DNA from: a virus
IMG/VR virus record: IMGVR_UViG_3300047357_000160
Location: 1 to 28,157 of that record
Direction: 5' to 3' (one strand)
Length of the DNA: 28,157 nucleotides
Under the pieces are notes generated by a model, which saw only the letters and a program-made list of their open reading frames with translations, made no database searches and was not told where the DNA came from. Numbering within the stretch: the stretch's first letter is position 1; every line of letters starts with the position of its first letter. Positions 2,544 to 18,673 of the stretch are shown here, in pieces. Both the position numbers and the translations under genes were made by a program.

Positions 2544-2684
2544 TCAATTAAATTTATGCGCCATGTCCTCGGCCCACTCAGAAATGCGGCGACAAAGCTC
2601 CACGATCCAGTAGCTCAGATCGTCAACGAACTCGCCAAGGACTTGGAAAAACCACCAGATGCACAGAAAGAATTTGCTTCTCAT
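2544..2684 (-). CDS. Small hydrophobic 46-residue protein
   Basis: A short frame whose ATG overlaps the stop of the Cro-like gene as ATGA and which ends 13 bases before the primase ATG. The protein starts MRSKFFLCIWWFFQVLGEF. The first 20 or so residues are strongly hydrophobic and aromatic, followed by an amphipathic acidic part ending AEDMAHKFN, which could be a short membrane-associated peptide. The upstream GGGAAAG is an acceptable ribosome site. The tight packing between two real genes is the main evidence that it is translated. I do not recognise a family. Confidence 0.55.
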   Translation of the reverse strand: MRSKFFLCIWWFFQVLGEFVDDLSYWIVELCRRISEWAEDMAHKFN

Positions 2685-2935
2685 TTCTTTCCCAACAACT
2701 TTGTTGTGTCTTTCAGCAGGTTAGGACAGAGGTCGAACCAAGTGATTTTTCGCTCGGTGCAAAGCTCTAGCTGAACTGCGCGAGACGCAGGCACCTCGCC
2801 CTTGGCACGCCACGCAGCCACGTTCTGCTTCTCAAGATCTAGTAGCAGAGCGAGCTGCCGATCCGACTGAAGGCCAAGTATTTTCTTTACCTGATCAAGT
2901 GCGTCGTTGACCGATTTATTGGTTTTGTTTTTCAT
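2681..2935 (-). CDS. P22 Cro / YdaS-like HTH regulator
   Basis: An 84-residue DNA-binding protein. Residues 20-75 fit the P22 Cro/YdaS-type helix-turn-helix: SDRQLALLLDLEKQNVAAW is the helix-turn-helix, and VPASRAVQLELCTERKITW matches the usual 'IP..RA..LE..T...I' tail of that family. The ATG at 2935 has an AAGGAT ribosome site 7 bases upstream. It is the first gene of the leftward early operon and lies next to the divergent control region with the 2998-3014 dyad, as expected of a Cro-type switch protein. Which operator it binds is inference. Confidence 0.75.
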   Translation of the reverse strand: MKNKTNKSVNDALDQVKKILGLQSDRQLALLLDLEKQNVAAWRAKGEVPASRAVQLELCTERKITWFDLCPNLLKDTTKLLGKK

Positions 2936-8278: not shown

Positions 8279-8932
8279 TTGAACAACTTTGCAACCCGCT
8301 TGCTGGAAGCATGTAACGCAAGCGATGAAATACCAGATTACGGAAAGGGTCAGCAGACTGCGATAGCCGCGAGATTAAATGTCAGCCAAGAGGCTGTCAG
8401 GAAGTGGCTCGCGGGGGAGACTGTGCCGAGGGCGGCGATGTCGAAGCGGCTCGCTACACTGCTCGGCGTTAAGCACTCGTGGCTCATGCTAGGCACCGCT
8501 CATGGCGAGATTGAGGTAGACATAAGGTTGGCGAGACGCCACAAGGCCTGCGTCTACGCTGTGATGACCTACGTCGTTGGCGCTGGAAAGGGCGCAACCT
8601 TTAGCGACGAAGAGGCCATCGATGACATTACGCTGATTGATGGCGGCAAGCTGCTCAGGGTCAGTGTTGAGATGGCAGAACGCCCCAGCGAAGGCGTTTA
8701 CGAGGTTAAGTTCTCCGAGCCGCAGAAGAACGCCGGGGTGACTGTGGCGGTGGTTGCGGAGTACCAAACGCAGCGTAGCGCGATGATGGACGCTCTTGAG
8801 ATCGACGAAGATATCTGGAAAAAGCACGGCAAGCTCTCGGGAAGGGAGCTAGTCCTGCGGTTTGAGAAAAGCGCACGCGGGAACAACTACTCGGTTGGTG
8901 GTACGAAAATTAGAAAGTTCTTGGAGGCATGA
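8279..8932 (+). CDS. XRE-type phage repressor without visible S24 domain
   Basis: A 217-residue protein. The N-terminal 70 residues are a classical HTH (QQTAIAARLNVSQEAVRKWL) followed by ATLLGVKHSWLMLG, the usual end of a CI-type DNA-binding domain. The C-terminal 140 residues lack the LexA/CI Ser-Lys autoprotease pattern and match no family I can name. The start is TTG at 8279 after AGGGGG. Longer in-frame starts would run back into the helicase gene and through the promoter. With operators around its own promoter it is the best candidate for the lysogeny repressor, and induction may not use RecA-stimulated self-cleavage (inference). Confidence 0.75.
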   Translation: MNNFATRLLEACNASDEIPDYGKGQQTAIAARLNVSQEAVRKWLAGETVPRAAMSKRLATLLGVKHSWLMLGTAHGEIEVDIRLARRHKACVYAVMTYVVGAGKGATFSDEEAIDDITLIDGGKLLRVSVEMAERPSEGVYEVKFSEPQKNAGVTVAVVAEYQTQRSAMMDALEIDEDIWKKHGKLSGRELVLRFEKSARGNNYSVGGTKIRKFLEA

Positions 8933-9132
8933 TGGAAAAACCGTATCTCGATTTGACAGAGCTGTCTGCTCTCTTCGGCATGAAGAAGAGCAGTCTGTTG
9001 AACGCGATCTCCAGCGAAAGGTTCTGCTGCCCCACTTACAAGCTGGGGCGTCAGCGCGTGGCGGATCGTAAAGTCGTGGAGGCCTACTTCGCCGCCAAGC
9101 GCGACGAAGGTTTGCGCCAAATTACAACTTAA
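8932..9132 (+). CDS. Excisionase-like / AlpA-like small HTH protein
   Basis: A 66-residue winged-helix-like protein: LDLTELSALFGMKKSSLLNA is the HTH, then YKLGRQRVADRKVVEAYFAA, the pattern of AlpA, Xis and similar small regulators. Two ATGs lie in tandem at 8929 and 8932. I chose 8932 because GGAGG at 8923-8927 is too close to the first. It overlaps the repressor stop, so the two are co-translated. It ends 14 bases before the convergent integrase stop. Excisionase, late-gene activator or Cop-like regulator all remain possible. Confidence 0.6.
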   Translation: MEKPYLDLTELSALFGMKKSSLLNAISSERFCCPTYKLGRQRVADRKVVEAYFAAKRDEGLRQITT

Positions 9133-9146
9133 AGGTGATAGACAAC

Positions 9147-10175
9147 CTAAAGTCCTTTTTCTTTTAGGTTTCCGACGATGTGTTCCGCTCGCAGGTGCGT
9201 ATAGGACTGAAGCATTTGGATGTCCCGGTGGCCGCTGAACATTGCCACCTCGGATGGCAGGAAGATCCCCATCTCAGTCAATCGGCTGACACCCTCGTGG
9301 CGCAGGTCGTGCCAGACCAGATCCTTGATACCCGCCTTGTCGCGATACCTGTTGAAGATCTTGGCCGCGTGGTTTGAGCTGACGTTGAAAATGAACTCCC
9401 CACGGCGCTCCTGCTTCTCAATAATCGCCATTGCATCCGCCAGTAGCGGAACCCGGCTGTAGACCTTGCCCTTGGGGTGCTTGCGCCAGCAGCCTACCGT
9501 TCTCTCCTCGGCATCCAACTCGTCCCAGCGCAGGGTAAACTGCTCCCCCCGGCGCATCGCGGTTAGGACAGCGAAGCGCATGACCTCTGGCAGAGACCAG
9601 TTCTTTTCCTGCGCCCCTTGGAAGTCATCCAGAATCCATTCCTCTTCGATAGCACGCAGCTCCTCGTCAGTGACCCTGCGCGTTCTGCGATCAGACTTGG
9701 TGATGAACTTCTGGCTTGCAAGCCAATCCTTTGCCAGATTGAATTCCGCCATCTCCGGCTTGAGCTGCATGTACGTCTCGGCAAATTTTAACAGCGTCCG
9801 CATGTACACGAATATGTGGTTTATGGAGCTGGCCTTAACCTCGTGCTTGCGCCTCTCGACGTACTCAAAGAACACCTCTCGCCTCAAATCCTTTAAAGCG
9901 TAGCACCCGAAGTGCTTGTCGATCTGCCGGTACACCTTGGCCTTATCGGCAGGCATGTCCAGCACCTTGAAGCTCTGATCAATCACGTCAGACAGCACAG
10001 TCTTTTCAGCCCTGAACTCGCCCTTTTCCAAGTCCGTCTCGGTCTTGCTGGCAAAGTCCTTGGCTGTCTGCCACTTGGAAAAAGTTTTAGAAACCGTAGG
10101 CTTTCCGGCCTTGCGGATCAACACCCGGTAACGGACGTTGCCTTTTGCATCTCTTCTCTTTTGAATCACTGCCAC
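9147..10175 (-). CDS. int: Tyrosine-family phage integrase
   Basis: A 342-residue site-specific recombinase. The N-terminal 55 residues (MAVIQKRRDAKGNVRYRV..) are an arm-binding three-stranded domain, followed by a helical core-binding domain and the catalytic domain. Active residues: Arg in AMRRGEQFTLRW near 209, HDLRHEG near 292, the second His/Arg in FSGHRD, and the nucleophile Tyr in LQSYTH near 327. The start is GTG with GGAGGTG upstream. It lies directly beside the attP-like region. Dyads O4 and O5 lie 50-115 bases upstream of the start, so its expression is probably under phage control. Confidence 0.95.
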   Translation of the reverse strand: MAVIQKRRDAKGNVRYRVLIRKAGKPTVSKTFSKWQTAKDFASKTETDLEKGEFRAEKTVLSDVIDQSFKVLDMPADKAKVYRQIDKHFGCYALKDLRREVFFEYVERRKHEVKASSINHIFVYMRTLLKFAETYMQLKPEMAEFNLAKDWLASQKFITKSDRRTRRVTDEELRAIEEEWILDDFQGAQEKNWSLPEVMRFAVLTAMRRGEQFTLRWDELDAEERTVGCWRKHPKGKVYSRVPLLADAMAIIEKQERRGEFIFNVSSNHAAKIFNRYRDKAGIKDLVWHDLRHEGVSRLTEMGIFLPSEVAMFSGHRDIQMLQSYTHLRAEHIVGNLKEKGL

Positions 10176-10223: not shown

Positions 10224-10240
10224 GACAACCTAGGGTTGTC
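10224..10240. promoter_or_regulatory. Operator-like dyad O4 upstream of integrase
   Basis: GACAACCTAGGGTTGTC has perfect 7-bp arms around TAG and is the most symmetric of the family. A related imperfect copy with the same CTAGG centre is at 10438-10454. It may be a repressor operator or an Xis/Int accessory site. Confidence 0.55.
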
Positions 10241-10250
10241 GAAACTAAAA

Positions 10251-10274
10251 CGTGGTACAGTTCGTGGTACAGTG
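10251..10274 (+). repeat. Tandem 12-bp repeat, candidate integrase arm sites
   Basis: CGTGGTACAGTT and CGTGGTACAGTG are adjacent 12-bp copies, so their centres are about one helical turn apart. A second pair of the same motif lies at 10504-10526, on the other side of the TauD-like segment. Paired direct repeats flanking a core are typical of arm-type sites of tyrosine integrases. Confidence 0.55.
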
Positions 10275-10290
10275 ACAAAAGTTATTTGTC
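10274..10290. promoter_or_regulatory. Operator-like dyad O5
   Basis: GACAAAAGTTATTTGTC has perfect 6-bp arms and a 5-bp centre, the same 17-bp geometry as O1, O3 and O4. Its start lies exactly 50 bp from that of O4. Confidence 0.45.
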
Positions 10291-10316
10291 TGAAGATGCC
10301 TTATTTTGCGTGGGTT

Positions 10317-10361
10317 TAAGTGATTGAAACGGTTACCTTTAATTTATCTAAGTGATTGAAA
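10317..10361 (+). repeat. Direct repeat TAAGTGATTGAAA (two copies)
   Basis: Exact 13-bp copies at 10317-10329 and 10349-10361, 32 bp apart (about three helical turns) on the same face of the helix. They directly precede the TauD-like segment. Possible accessory protein sites; function unknown. Confidence 0.5.
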
Positions 10362-10490
10362 ATGAACGAAAATGAAAATACCACGGTTATGTGGGACAAC
10401 CGCTGCTTGCTGCACTATGCGGTTCACGATCATGGCGATAAACCTAGGGTTATCAACAGGTTACAGGTAAAAGGGCCAGTGCCAAAGTGA
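10362..10490 (+). pseudogene. 3' end of a TauD/TfdA-family dioxygenase gene (host-derived fragment)
   Basis: The frame ends at TGA 10488-10490 and encodes TTVMWDNRCLLHYAVHDH followed by a segment ending VINRLQVKGPVPK. It matches the C-terminus of Fe(II)/2-oxoglutarate dioxygenases of the TauD family position by position: the WDNR box, the distal iron-ligand His in HYA, the R-x3-R pair (Arg266/Arg270 in E. coli TauD) and the final G-x2-P. Homology starts near 10383. The six codons before it look unrelated and a TGA is at 10353. There is no ribosome site, so it is unlikely to be translated alone. It most likely restores the end of a host gene after integration. Confidence 0.75.
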
Positions 10491-10493
10491 CCC
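10469..10493 (-). terminator. Candidate leftward terminator of the late operon
   Basis: On the minus strand GGGTCA and TGGCCC form a 6-bp stem (one G-T pair) with a 9-base loop, followed by TTTT. It lies 32 bases after the last late gene and would shield attP and the integrase from late transcription. The stem is short, so confidence is modest. It overlaps the 3' end of the TauD-like segment. Confidence 0.35.
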
Positions 10494-10503
10494 TCTAAAA
10501 CCC

Positions 10504-10526
10504 CGTGGTACGCTCTTGGTACAGTT
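10504..10526 (+). repeat. Second GTGGTAC repeat pair, candidate arm sites
   Basis: CGTGGTAC at 10504-10511 and TTGGTACAGTT at 10516-10526, related to and in the same orientation as the 10251-10274 pair. The pair overlaps the stop of the last late gene. Confidence 0.45.
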
Positions 10527-10698
10527 ACCTGCGTCTTGGCGTTGTTTTGCGCTTGCTCTTTGGCTTCTTTGCCGTCTTGGCTGCGGCTTTGAAGTCTGCG
10601 GCACTTGGCGCACCTGCGCTCCCCGGCTTGCGTGGCTTCTTTCCCGCCTTACGGCGAGCGTGAATGTTTGCGTAGAGTCCTTTACGCGGTGTTGGCAT
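10525..10698 (-). CDS. Small basic protein, last gene of the late operon
   Basis: A 57-residue, very basic protein: MPTPRKGLYANIHARRKAGK, then KPRKPGSAGAPSAADFKAAA and a Lys/Arg tail ending KSKRKTTPRRR. I know similar 'KGLYANIHAKR...RKPG' proteins as recurrent in phage genomes, without a proven role. A nucleic-acid-binding or packaged protein fits the charge. The ATG at 10698 follows a perfect AGGAGG that overlaps the upstream stop, so this start is preferred over longer in-frame ones. Confidence 0.75.
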   Translation of the reverse strand: MPTPRKGLYANIHARRKAGKKPRKPGSAGAPSAADFKAAAKTAKKPKSKRKTTPRRR

Positions 10699-10706
10699 GT
10701 TTCCTC

Positions 10707-11150
10707 CTAGCTTGTTGCCCACCAAAGCACCAAGGCGATAGCCACCGGGACTACCCCAAGGCATATGGCGATGGCTATCAGTATCTCAATCAGTTGCTTT
10801 TTCTTTTTCCTTGCCAGAGCTTCTTGTCTCTTGACCTCTTCCTGACGGTTCTTTCTAGCCTCGGCCATCTTCTGCTGCATATCATCCCAGAGGTCAGTTC
10901 GGTTCAGGGACAGGAATAAATCCTTCATCCTTTGACGTGACTGACGAACCATCTCCTCTGCCATAACCGCCTTGGCGGCCTCGGCCTCGCTCATGGTTCG
11001 GGTAGAGTTCTTGGCTTTTTGCAGATCAAACTCGGCAGCGCCCATGCGGCCTATAAAGGCACCAAGGGACTCGATGTTGTTGGCCGCGCCAGCCGCCATC
11101 TCTAGCGTCTTGCACGCCGCCGTCACCGCTGCTACTGCTTCTATTATCAT
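10707..11150 (-). CDS. Coiled-coil protein with C-terminal membrane anchor
   Basis: 147 residues. The N-terminus is an Ala-rich helix, residues about 60-115 are charged and likely coiled coil (MAEARKNRQEEVKRQEALAR), and residues about 120-145 form one strong transmembrane helix (IEILIAIAICLGVVPVAIAL) preceded by KKKK, giving an inside-positive topology. The ATG overlaps the upstream stop as ATGA. It follows the large virion proteins. Similar single-anchor proteins close the late operon in other marine podoviruses as far as I recall. Function unknown. Confidence 0.65.
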   Translation of the reverse strand: MIIEAVAAVTAACKTLEMAAGAANNIESLGAFIGRMGAAEFDLQKAKNSTRTMSEAEAAKAVMAEEMVRQSRQRMKDLFLSLNRTDLWDDMQQKMAEARKNRQEEVKRQEALARKKKKQLIEILIAIAICLGVVPVAIALVLWWATS

Positions 11151-12601
11151 GGAGCCATCAGGTTCATATAGGCTTGCTCGTCAAGCATGCCGGTCTTCAA
11201 AGCCTGACTAGCTTTGACAAGATCGGCAGCCGTGTCGCGCACCATGTTGGGGAATGCTGGCCTGAACCCGCCAAACATATCTTCTTCCCTTGCGTCCTCG
11301 TCGGTCATACGTTTGATCGGCAACACGTCGCCGTAAGCGAAGCCCTCGTCTGGTGCTAAGGCTTCCAGAGCTGGCGCTATGCTGCGTTGGCTGTCCTCGT
11401 ACATTGCCAGCTCCATGTTGTTCATGGGGCGCGAGGTTCCGTCTGCGTTCCGCACCATCAGGTCTTCACCTGTAGCACCGGCCAGTAGCCCGGTTGGTAG
11501 GCCAGTAACAGCCACATTGACGCCACGGTCTGAGAGGTTGCGTAGAACGTCCTCTGTAATGACCCCAGACTTAGCGGCCATCTGCATGGCGCGTATGTTG
11601 CGATCAGTAGGATTTATTGGGTCTACTACTGGAAGTTGTTTATCGCCCAAGCGTATTCCCGGTAAAAGCTCAAATATCGACACGTCATCGATACCAGAGA
11701 GCTGCGCGATGCCTTCACCCGGAACGCCATAAGGGTATGCCGGGTGAGTAGACTTCATTGGGTCTTTGCCTGTGGAAATTCTGCCGACGTTCTGTATACC
11801 GGCGTCTCTGGAATTAACCTGTGTGGGGTCAGCTACGGCGAGACGAGCTTGCCCGATGCTGAGACTCCCGTCGTTGCGAAATTGCTTATCAAAGACTCTA
11901 TCTTTCAGCTCTTTGCGAACCGCGTCGGGCGTGTTGCGCCAGACTTCTACAGAGCGTGGATCATCAACACCCTTCCACCCTTTGATTTTTAACCCGGCGT
12001 TCTTTCGTTTCTTGGTCTTTCTGTCTATTGACCCAACAGTCTCGTAATCCCTTATGGCCTTATCGAGTGCTTTTTTCTGAGACGGTGACATGGCAGCAGA
12101 TGCGTAAGCCATCATTGTCTCGCCGGTCATGGTTGCAAAATCACCACCTGTTGGTGCCATGCGCCAAGGTATATAAAGAGGGTCTTTGCCGTAGGTTTCT
12201 TTAAGCTCTCCAGCGGCTTTCATTATTTGGTTTACTGGATTTCTGGCCGAGGCCCACACCTGACCGGGGTTAAGCTCATCGTCGAACATGTAGCCCTGAC
12301 CGCCGCGAAGCATCACAGGGTCGTTAAACCTTACGCCGTCGATACCGATTATCTCCCCTCTGGCGTCGGTTCGGTCTGACATAGACGTAACGAAAGGCAT
12401 GCCCTCAAAATCAGACAACTTAGCAGTCGGGGGAGGCGCGTACCCTTGGTTCCGCAATACCTCTACCTCGAAATTGTTTAGCCTCTCGACTTCTCTTTTT
12501 CGCTTATCAAACCGCTCGTCGTACATGCGGCCAAGATCATCAACAAAGTCAGAGGCACCGTCATATAACTTTTTTGCAATAACAGAACTAAAACCCGACA
12601 T
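11147..12601 (-). CDS. Late-operon protein of unknown function (484 aa)
   Basis: The N-terminus (KLYDGASDFVDDLGRMYDER) is helical and charged. The middle is rich in aromatic and Gly residues (PVMLRGGQGYMFDDELNPGQ), and a basic stretch KKRKNAGLKIKGWKG lies near residue 200. No signal peptide or membrane span is seen. It starts one base after the previous stop, within the block of large proteins after the tail genes, so it is probably a virion or ejected protein. I do not recognise a domain. Confidence 0.6.
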   Translation of the reverse strand: MSGFSSVIAKKLYDGASDFVDDLGRMYDERFDKRKREVERLNNFEVEVLRNQGYAPPPTAKLSDFEGMPFVTSMSDRTDARGEIIGIDGVRFNDPVMLRGGQGYMFDDELNPGQVWASARNPVNQIMKAAGELKETYGKDPLYIPWRMAPTGGDFATMTGETMMAYASAAMSPSQKKALDKAIRDYETVGSIDRKTKKRKNAGLKIKGWKGVDDPRSVEVWRNTPDAVRKELKDRVFDKQFRNDGSLSIGQARLAVADPTQVNSRDAGIQNVGRISTGKDPMKSTHPAYPYGVPGEGIAQLSGIDDVSIFELLPGIRLGDKQLPVVDPINPTDRNIRAMQMAAKSGVITEDVLRNLSDRGVNVAVTGLPTGLLAGATGEDLMVRNADGTSRPMNNMELAMYEDSQRSIAPALEALAPDEGFAYGDVLPIKRMTDEDAREEDMFGGFRPAFPNMVRDTAADLVKASQALKTGMLDEQAYMNLMAP

Positions 12602-16423: not shown

Positions 16424-18673
16424 TTAGATGCTGAAGTTGAAGCCGCTAGACTTGCCCTTGCTGCTAGTGTTCGAGCTGGACAAGTTGTTGGGCGCTCCAA
16501 TCTGCTCATTGTAGAATTGCAGTGAGTTGTAAGGTGCCATGCCCTGACGGTAATTGTAGTTTTCCATCTGCTGATCGTAGTCGCGCATGTATTGACCTGA
16601 ACCTTGCGCCCGATCCAAGCCAGATCCGACCATGTTCGCGCCCGTTTGCGACATACCCATGCCTGCCTGACCGCCACGGAAGGACATATCTGCGCCAAAC
16701 TGGTTGTTGGCTGTGTTTGAATTGAAGGCGTTAGCGCCCATACCAGTGCCGTACTGTCGAGCGTTGTTGTACTGGGTGGCATCGAACTGTCTGCCGTCTT
16801 GTCGCTGCCCCGCGTTGAACTGGTTGTTGTTCTGACTGAGACCGTAACCTTGGCCGAGAAGTTGATTGCCGAAACCTGCGTTTGTTTTCATTGCGTCTTG
16901 GCTAAAGCCAGCGTTCTCAGATGATCTACCGGCCTCGACGCCGAGTCCGGCTCTAGACATGTCCTGCCTAAAACCTGTGTTTTGCATTCCTGTCTGCTGG
17001 CGAAAGCCAGTGTTCATGGCGTCTACGCCCGTGGCGGTGTTGATGCCGGTACGGAGCATGTCGTTTGCCGCGCCCATGTTGGCTAAACCTGTTTGCTGAT
17101 CAAATCCAGCGTTCATACTCGCTTGGTTTGCTGCGACATCAATACCTCTGCCTTGCATGGCGTTTGCCGCGCCCATGTTGGCTAAACCTGTCTGCTGGTT
17201 GAAGCCTGCGTTCATACCCGCTTGGCTTGCTGCGACATCAATACCTCTGCCTTGCATGGCGTTAGAAGCGTTTTGGTTCGCAATGTTAGTTTGCTGGTTG
17301 AACCCAGCGTTCATGCCAGCTTGTGAACCAGCTAGGTCAATGCCTCTCGCTTGCATTGCGTTTGTGGCGTCAGCGTTTCTAATGTTTGCTTGCTGGTTGA
17401 AGCCTGCGTTTTGACTTGCTTGGTTTCCGGCGATGCCAAGACCTTGACTCGCCATGCTGTTGGTAGCGCCTGCGTTGAACTGCTGATTCTGCTGTCCCAT
17501 CTGCGCGTTCTGCTGCGCTCGGTTAGCCTCGATACCCAGCGCCTGACCATACGCCTGACCACGCATCTGCGAAGATACGTCCGCTGATCGGTCTGCTGCT
17601 CCGCGTGCGGCTATAGCGTCCATGACTGCTCTTCGACTTGACCCACTATTCCCAGATGCTGCGGCGTTGGATGCGTTGCCTGTAAACTGGTTCTCTTCCA
17701 AGTTGCGGTTGATGTCTCGCGTAGCTGCGTTGATCTGACCCTGTAAAACATCGTTGTTAATGTAATTTGACAGATTGCCTTGATTAAACCCTTGGTTCTG
17801 TGTTCCCGCAGATTGAGATGCAAGGTTGCCAGCCTGACTAACCACACCTGAGTTGAAACCGTTTACGTTTGCCGCGCCAGCGTCTCTGCTCATGCCGCCA
17901 ATCTGATTAGCTAAGTTGGTATCGATACCGTTGACGCTGGCGGCGTTGGACATGTTTGCCATACCACCAATCTGATTCGCTAACCCAGAGTTGATGCCGT
18001 TTACGCTGGCGGCGTTTGCTTGGTTTGCCATGCCGCCAATCTGATTCGCTAAACCAGAGTTTATTCCGTTGGCACTAGCGGCGTTTGCTTGGTTTGCCAT
18101 GCCACCAATTTGTGACGCAAAGCCTAGATTCGGCCCCTGTCCCTGCGCGGCGTTGCCTTGTGCAGCCAGACCGCCGTACTGCGACACGTTGCCGAGGTTT
18201 GGCCCTCTGTTGTAAGCCGCGCCCATCCTTGATGCGCTATTTCGCATGTTGTTGGCGGTGTTGTAGTTTACGCCGCCAGACTGAGCGAACCCTCCTTGAG
18301 AAACGCCCCCAGCGTACTGGTTGCCGGTATTCATGGCAAAGTTAGCGCCTGCACCGGGGCCAGCGTTCATGGCTTGGTTGGCGTAGTTCATCGCACCACC
18401 AAAGCCCTGATTCATCATGCCCCCGCCTTGCGTCATCATGTTGCCGCCAGCGTTGGCAATTTGGTTGCCTCCGGCGAACTGATCGTTCAGCGATGTTTGA
18501 AGGTTTGGGTTGATACCAGCAACGCCTTCAACGGGCATCGGCCCTTGGTTATAGAGATCCTGAGCGTTTTGCCTTACATCTTGCAGGAACGGCTGCTGAG
18601 TTGGATCAACGTATGTGTTCGCTTGACTGTTGGAGCTGCTGCTTGATTTTTTCTTACCGAATCCAAATATCAT
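16424..18673 (-). CDS. Asn/Gln/Gly/Ala-rich repeat virion protein (749 aa)
   Basis: The protein starts MIFGFGKKKSSSSSNSQANT and then is very rich in Asn, Gln, Gly, Ala and Met with almost no charge. Residues about 175-280 hold about five copies of a 23-residue unit (NQIGGMANQANAASVNGIN). Residues about 415-550 hold about five copies of a roughly 33-residue unit (NAMQGRGIDVAASQAGMNAG then FNQQTGLANMGA). The C-terminus ends in Ser/Asn/Lys. AGGA upstream overlaps the previous stop. Its place before the ejection-type proteins suggests a virion-internal or tail-lumen protein. Low sequence complexity makes homology searches unreliable. Confidence 0.65.
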   Translation of the reverse strand: MIFGFGKKKSSSSSNSQANTYVDPTQQPFLQDVRQNAQDLYNQGPMPVEGVAGINPNLQTSLNDQFAGGNQIANAGGNMMTQGGGMMNQGFGGAMNYANQAMNAGPGAGANFAMNTGNQYAGGVSQGGFAQSGGVNYNTANNMRNSASRMGAAYNRGPNLGNVSQYGGLAAQGNAAQGQGPNLGFASQIGGMANQANAASANGINSGLANQIGGMANQANAASVNGINSGLANQIGGMANMSNAASVNGIDTNLANQIGGMSRDAGAANVNGFNSGVVSQAGNLASQSAGTQNQGFNQGNLSNYINNDVLQGQINAATRDINRNLEENQFTGNASNAAASGNSGSSRRAVMDAIAARGAADRSADVSSQMRGQAYGQALGIEANRAQQNAQMGQQNQQFNAGATNSMASQGLGIAGNQASQNAGFNQQANIRNADATNAMQARGIDLAGSQAGMNAGFNQQTNIANQNASNAMQGRGIDVAASQAGMNAGFNQQTGLANMGAANAMQGRGIDVAANQASMNAGFDQQTGLANMGAANDMLRTGINTATGVDAMNTGFRQQTGMQNTGFRQDMSRAGLGVEAGRSSENAGFSQDAMKTNAGFGNQLLGQGYGLSQNNNQFNAGQRQDGRQFDATQYNNARQYGTGMGANAFNSNTANNQFGADMSFRGGQAGMGMSQTGANMVGSGLDRAQGSGQYMRDYDQQMENYNYRQGMAPYNSLQFYNEQIGAPNNLSSSNTSSKGKSSGFNFSI
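17030..17420 (-). repeat. Coding tandem repeat array, about 33-residue units
   Basis: Near-identical units such as GCGACATCAATACCTCTGCC recur in the plus-strand text at about 17128 and 17231, with related copies on either side. They encode the second array of the 749-residue protein. Confidence 0.7.
17830..18150 (-). repeat. Coding tandem repeat array, 23-residue (69-bp) units
   Basis: Units with TTTGCCATGCCGCCAATCTG and GTTTACGCTGGCGGCGTTTG (plus-strand text) recur every 69 bp and encode the first array of the 749-residue protein. Confidence 0.7.

Follow-up and report, generated by a model that had tools for sequence, protein, structure and literature searches.

Why would a phage carry, next to its integrase gene, the 3'-terminal piece of a gene for a metabolic enzyme? 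The question is raised by a short open frame in a virus record that we analysed over its whole length (28,157 bp; hereafter the window). The integrase is a tyrosine recombinase of 342 aa (9147-10175, minus strand; Pfam PF00589, E 8.8e-20; PHROG 1, 1.1e-39). Convergent with its gene (int) lies that of a small HTH_17 protein (8929-9132, plus strand; Pfam 7e-4, below the cut-off), which we infer from position and domain to be a likely excisionase. A candidate CI-like repressor of 84 aa is encoded at 2681-2935 (minus strand; Pfam Phage_CI_repr, 4.7e-7). Among the structural genes, positions 16424-18673 encode a 749-aa protein of no family, with many Gln/Asn/Gly-rich repeats (NIGGMANQANAASVNGINSGLANQ and similar).

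The end of a dioxygenase gene beside the integrase

The frame runs on the plus strand from an ATG at 10362 to a TGA at 10488-10490, and its 42 codons encode MNENENTTVMWDNRCLLHYAVHDHGDKPRVINRLQVKGPVPK, followed by the stop. The similarity to the C-terminus of the TauD family, on which the original prediction hinged, was found by a profile search: Pfam TauD (PF02668) matches over profile positions 237-266 of 267 with E 2.1e-4 and 21.7 bits, which a mere fragment would be expected to leave short of the gathering score (27 bits), and a six-frame search of the whole record gave the match at E 3.8e-5. With phmmer, the frame aligned to residues 254-287 of AtsK (E 1e-6) and to the final residues of 3pvj, a 277-aa taurine dioxygenase chain. 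This marine phage carries next to its integrase gene the last 33 codons of a bacterial TauD-type dioxygenase gene, the likeness beginning around codon 8-9 and reaching the family's own C-terminus. The predicted origin as the end of a host gene holds from there onward; it does not extend to codons 1-8 (MNENENTT), which have no match in the host gene and which we read as phage arm. Aligned to AtsK, the frame places its His18 on His264, the third iron ligand, and its Arg29 and Arg33 on Arg275 and Arg279. In TauD and AtsK, the arginines of this R-x3-R pair serve the 2-oxoglutarate side and the sulfonate/sulfate side, and the histidine is an iron ligand.

The frame lies, as predicted, beside the integrase gene (187 bp upstream of its start), between paired repeats and on the opposite strand from both int and the gene block 10525-12601. 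It had also been described as lacking a start signal, which is not fully accurate: the ATG at 10362 is in frame, and an in-frame ATG or GTG occupies this place in each of the seven phages with a read att region (GTG in L007); the probability of an in-frame start there by chance is about 0.29. No good Shine-Dalgarno sequence is seen before the ATG, and no sigma-70 promoter for a free-standing gene was recognised on the frame's strand.

Architecture of the probable attachment site

Three elements are arranged around the frame. The first is a core (10385-10438, plus strand) identical at 54 of 54 positions to a host tauD-family gene (L132). It overlaps a putative strand-exchange site, CGGTTA-TGTGGGA-CAACCG (10384-10402), proposed from the sequence and the phage alignments, an imperfect inverted repeat around 7 bp that becomes perfect in the related phages L003-L005 (YAACCG). 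The 7 central bases are the last two of a Met codon, a Trp codon and the first two of an Asp codon, and the only degenerate base stands just outside them. The second element is the replacement tail (10439-10490, plus strand), (D)KPRVINRLQVKGPVPK and the stop, which holds both arginines of R-x3-R and is conserved with hosts as protein while its codons have diverged from theirs. The third consists of putative integrase arm sites: two copies of CGTGGTACAGT 12 bp apart on the left (10251-10273), kept in all related phages, and CGTGGTACGCT with CTTGGTACAGT 11 bp apart on the right (10504-10525).

A palindrome, GACAACCTAGGGTTGTC, lies in the left arm (10224-10240) and a near-copy of it, ATAAACCTAGGGTTATC, inside the coding tail (10438-10454); L003 has the same G-to-A change in both. 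These AACCTAGGGTT palindromes flank the core; L003 changes both to AACCTAGAGTT, L004 does not, and the palindromes are absent from L007 and L008. The tail codons that contain AAACCTAGGGTTATC, the copy resembling the left palindrome, may also serve to bind a protein, and their drift from the host's codons could have its cause there.

Related phages keep the peptide or exchange it

An integrase with 76-100% identity to that of the window is encoded on seven other viral contigs. Four of them (L002-L005) have the same tauD-like frame, with the peptide unchanged from core to stop. Over this stretch they show five changes at four third-codon sites (10397, 10448, 10469 and 10484), all five synonymous, for which P is about 4e-4 to 1.6e-3 at a synonymous fraction of 0.21-0.27. 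Amino-acid changes among the four fall in the codons directly before the core, and the first nine codons vary freely.

Two further relatives, L007 and L008 (integrase 76-78% identical), have the arm repeats and the left arm in common with the others, as well as TTATGTGGGACAACCG. After ATGTGGGACAACCG they have a short in-frame tail, RLPLVA and a stop, instead of the tauD tail, and then the right arm repeats. We read the tauD tail as a cassette between core and right arm, because these phages share arms and core and have a different tail. The candidate strand-exchange stretch is common to tail-bearing and tail-less phages, and the switch to RLPLVA points to exchange at the Met-Trp-Asp codons. 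If L007 and L008 use the same site, TauD would be cut off before its iron-ligand His.

The att tails of L007 and L008 differ by two bases, both differences being synonymous, and the att region of L007 lies upstream of int (3001), as does that of L008. Their LVA end resembles an ssrA-type degradation tail; ARAGORN and Rfam were used to look for a tmRNA as the target of these two phages and found nothing. Their tail sequence is absent from 207 host-family genomes and from the other viral contigs. More distant integrase relatives (29-37% identity, L021-L035) had no tauD match in the loci fetched, and no further viral contig with the phage arm was found.

A matching gene in marine gammaproteobacteria

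A single fragment is too short a query, and the host search was made with an alignment of its copies. The peptide search, which the original prediction had directed at marine proteobacterial genomes, led to tauD-family genes in marine gammaproteobacterial metagenome-assembled genomes (MAGs; titles naming HTCC2089, OM182, the K189A clade and Pseudomonadales). The best matches are full TauD-family proteins of 261 aa (L056, Pfam 1.3e-63). L056 and its relatives carry WHSDMTY (H-x-D), LLHY (with the distal His) and R-x3-R, as members of the TauD/TfdA family do; against the NCBIfam model for taurine dioxygenase proper (NF007104), the target gene scores 205.6 bits, below the cut-off of 313, which places it in the family and outside that model.

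The predicted copy of a host gene end was found at the level of DNA. The window is identical to L132 at 54 of 54 positions (10385-10438) and to L056 at 55 of 56 (10386-10441), and matches L134 at 52 of 54 and L043 at 51 of 53 (L056 and L133 are the same gene, as are L043 and L135). This identity stops sharply at 10438-10441, beyond which the protein alone is conserved and codons differ. Where phage and host encode the same amino acid, 15 of 16 codons are identical in the core, compared with 3 of 9 in the tail for L132 and 1 of 8 for L133 (Fisher P 0.003 and 0.0002). The longest exact runs between the fragment and 47 host sequences measure 53 and 50 bases. When the fragment was reshuffled synonymously 2000 times, with general or position-specific codon use, the best run was 47 and the second best 36, and none reached the observed pair. 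Part of the phage-host identity could reflect synonymous-site conservation among hosts, a point that the position-specific reshuffle addresses. Phages and hosts also agree by type: those with GAT at the Asp codon (L003-L005) match the GAT-type hosts L134 and L135 over 50 bases, and the GAC-type phage of the window fits the GAC-type hosts L132 and L133.

The hosts resemble each other in the same stretch. L132 and L133, hosts picked by their match to the phage, use the same codon at 14 of 16 positions of the core and at 83 of 183 in the rest of the gene. Host species thus differ less in the core than elsewhere in the gene, and the phage, as we read these alignments, uses a stretch that is conserved among hosts anyway. 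Host tauD genes only about 75% identical share 10385-10438 almost base for base. Phage-borne homogenisation of the bacterial site (attB) across host species is possible, and the choice of hosts by phage match could explain the likeness.

A model of integration into the tauD-family gene

The locus combines what is expected of a gene-restoring attP: it adjoins int, holds a segment identical to a host gene and carries an in-frame end down to the stop. On these comparisons, it is highly probable that this attP inserts into the 3' part of a gammaproteobacterial tauD-family gene and supplies an in-frame replacement end. Positions 10224-10525 would serve a temperate phage as attP, its tyrosine integrase targeting that part of the gene, with strand exchange most likely at ATG-TGG-GA (Met-Trp-Asp), and the overlap would be unchanged in any host that keeps these residues. 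At attL, the 5' part of the host tauD would be joined in frame to the phage codons, AAACCTAGRGTTATCAACAGG; at attR, AAGTGATTGAAAATGAACGAAAATGA would be followed by a core and a tail of host type, because the original 3' end of the host gene would now stand at the other end of the prophage. The lysogen's enzyme would keep its length, with the Fe-ligand His and both arginines encoded by the phage, and would have a new but probably equivalent active-site end.

Hybrids built in silico in three hosts are full-length TauD proteins of unchanged length, with 7-8 residues changed near the end and both arginines kept. Together with the synonymous-only variation of the tail, they support the earlier proposal that the replacement end keeps the enzyme intact. 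The suggestion that the phage might alter the substrate-side Arg was not borne out: the Arg is the same, and it is the residue just before this second arginine that differs (His in the host, Asn in the phage). We infer recombination at this place, the exact cut and the activity of the hybrid enzyme from sequence. Single-site exchange alone does not explain why the identity runs about 40 bp past the proposed cut before it ends; the true core may be longer, or phage and host copies may have undergone conversion.

The prophage that the original prediction expected beside tauD did not turn up. A close integrase was found neither in the 207 host-family genomes nor in a 392-genome sample of the order, the phage-arm sequence had no match in either set, which held no lysogen, attL or attR, and an integrase alignment search of the genome contigs gave no relative. 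Lysogens may be absent from the MAGs searched.

The gene downstream of tauD allows an extension of this model. Where the attB match is best, the stop of tauD shares 1 or 4 bases (TAATG or ATGA) with the start of a gene of about 270 aa (L056 6099-6908, L043 6096-6911, and also L132-L135 and L138), an overlap not present in L136, L137, L141 and L144. The product of this gene belongs to no known family, the best match being a very weak one to the acyl-CoA dehydrogenase middle domain. Since the tauD stop overlaps the downstream start, integration would split a coupled pair. At attR, a frame of 42 codons would start at the phage ATG (10362) and end at the host overlap. The attP might then refit both halves of the operon, attL restoring TauD and this ATG keeping the downstream gene translated by coupling, and L007 and L008 would keep the second function alone, truncating TauD with the RLPLVA end; we consider this extension rather unlikely.

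Other readings of the locus

The core could be a real att site at which insertion harms the enzyme, such that the hybrid TauD is inactive or altered and lysogeny switches or changes it. The 7-8 changes near the active site, including the His to Asn by the substrate-side Arg, would fit this, as would the outright truncation expected from L007 and L008 if they use the same site; the retention of the iron ligand, both arginines and the length, and a tail peptide unchanged in four related phages, speak against it and leave it unlikely.

Could the fragment be the relic of a captured tauD gene, acquired as an auxiliary metabolic gene or through imprecise excision and beside int by chance, with the attP elsewhere? 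Phage records with tauD-family genes exist, and the genomes searched held no lysogen. A relic would decay, however, and the tail has changed only synonymously; the DNA identity is limited to the core while the tail keeps the protein alone; and the fragment sits between paired arm repeats that are kept even in the tail-less sister phages. We regard this reading as very improbable.

That the 42 codons are a small phage gene of their own, translated from their own ATG, is more improbable still, for although an in-frame start occurs in 7 of 7 phages, its chance of arising is considerable, a sigma-70 promoter and a good ribosome site are missing, the first nine codons vary freely while the rest is fixed, and the product would be an isolated enzyme end.

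Relation to known integration systems

Restoring the 3' end of a target gene is what the tRNA-type attP of temperate phages does, and the site described here resembles it in this respect. It differs in having a protein-coding target, in which sequence identity would be maintained by the single-codon residues Met and Trp and by protein conservation, not by RNA structure. Phage 21 integrates at icd, as e14 does. In E. coli, e14 replaces 54 C-terminal residues of the icd product, with 12 nucleotide exchanges and two conservative replacements (PMC11148124). As at icd, the phage would enter the gene of a metabolic enzyme within its 3' part, bring a replacement 3' end with silent and a few amino-acid changes, and displace the original one. 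Unlike at icd, the target is a tauD-family gene, the iron ligand and two active-site arginines lie in the stretch that is replaced, sister phages have the same arms without the replacement, and the case is built from sequence, no lysogen having been found. Islands at dusA also use a tyrosine integrase aimed at a conserved coding stretch and replace the gene end (PMC4482086); they replace the 5' end, whereas here it is the 3' end, with another integrase group and target, and the part that they replace has no known catalytic residue, unlike the tauD tail. More generally, protein-coding genes are stated to be the targets of many islands, which reconstitute them, the attP restoring the end of the target gene (PMC12884075). 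The literature searched gave nothing relevant on prophages inserted at tauD or other taurine dioxygenase genes, and an earlier listing in the 2020 target survey of Mageeney et al. is possible. The mechanism is of the e14/icd kind, already known; the tauD-family target appears to be new.

With it, a TauD-family dioxygenase gene of uncultured marine gammaproteobacteria would join the protein-coding attachment sites of phages, and an environmental phage group is linked to its probable hosts. In a lysogen, the enzyme would owe its iron ligand and both active-site arginines to phage codons instead of those of the host. Through the related phages that lack the tail, lysogeny that repairs its target gene can be compared in nature with lysogeny that does not.
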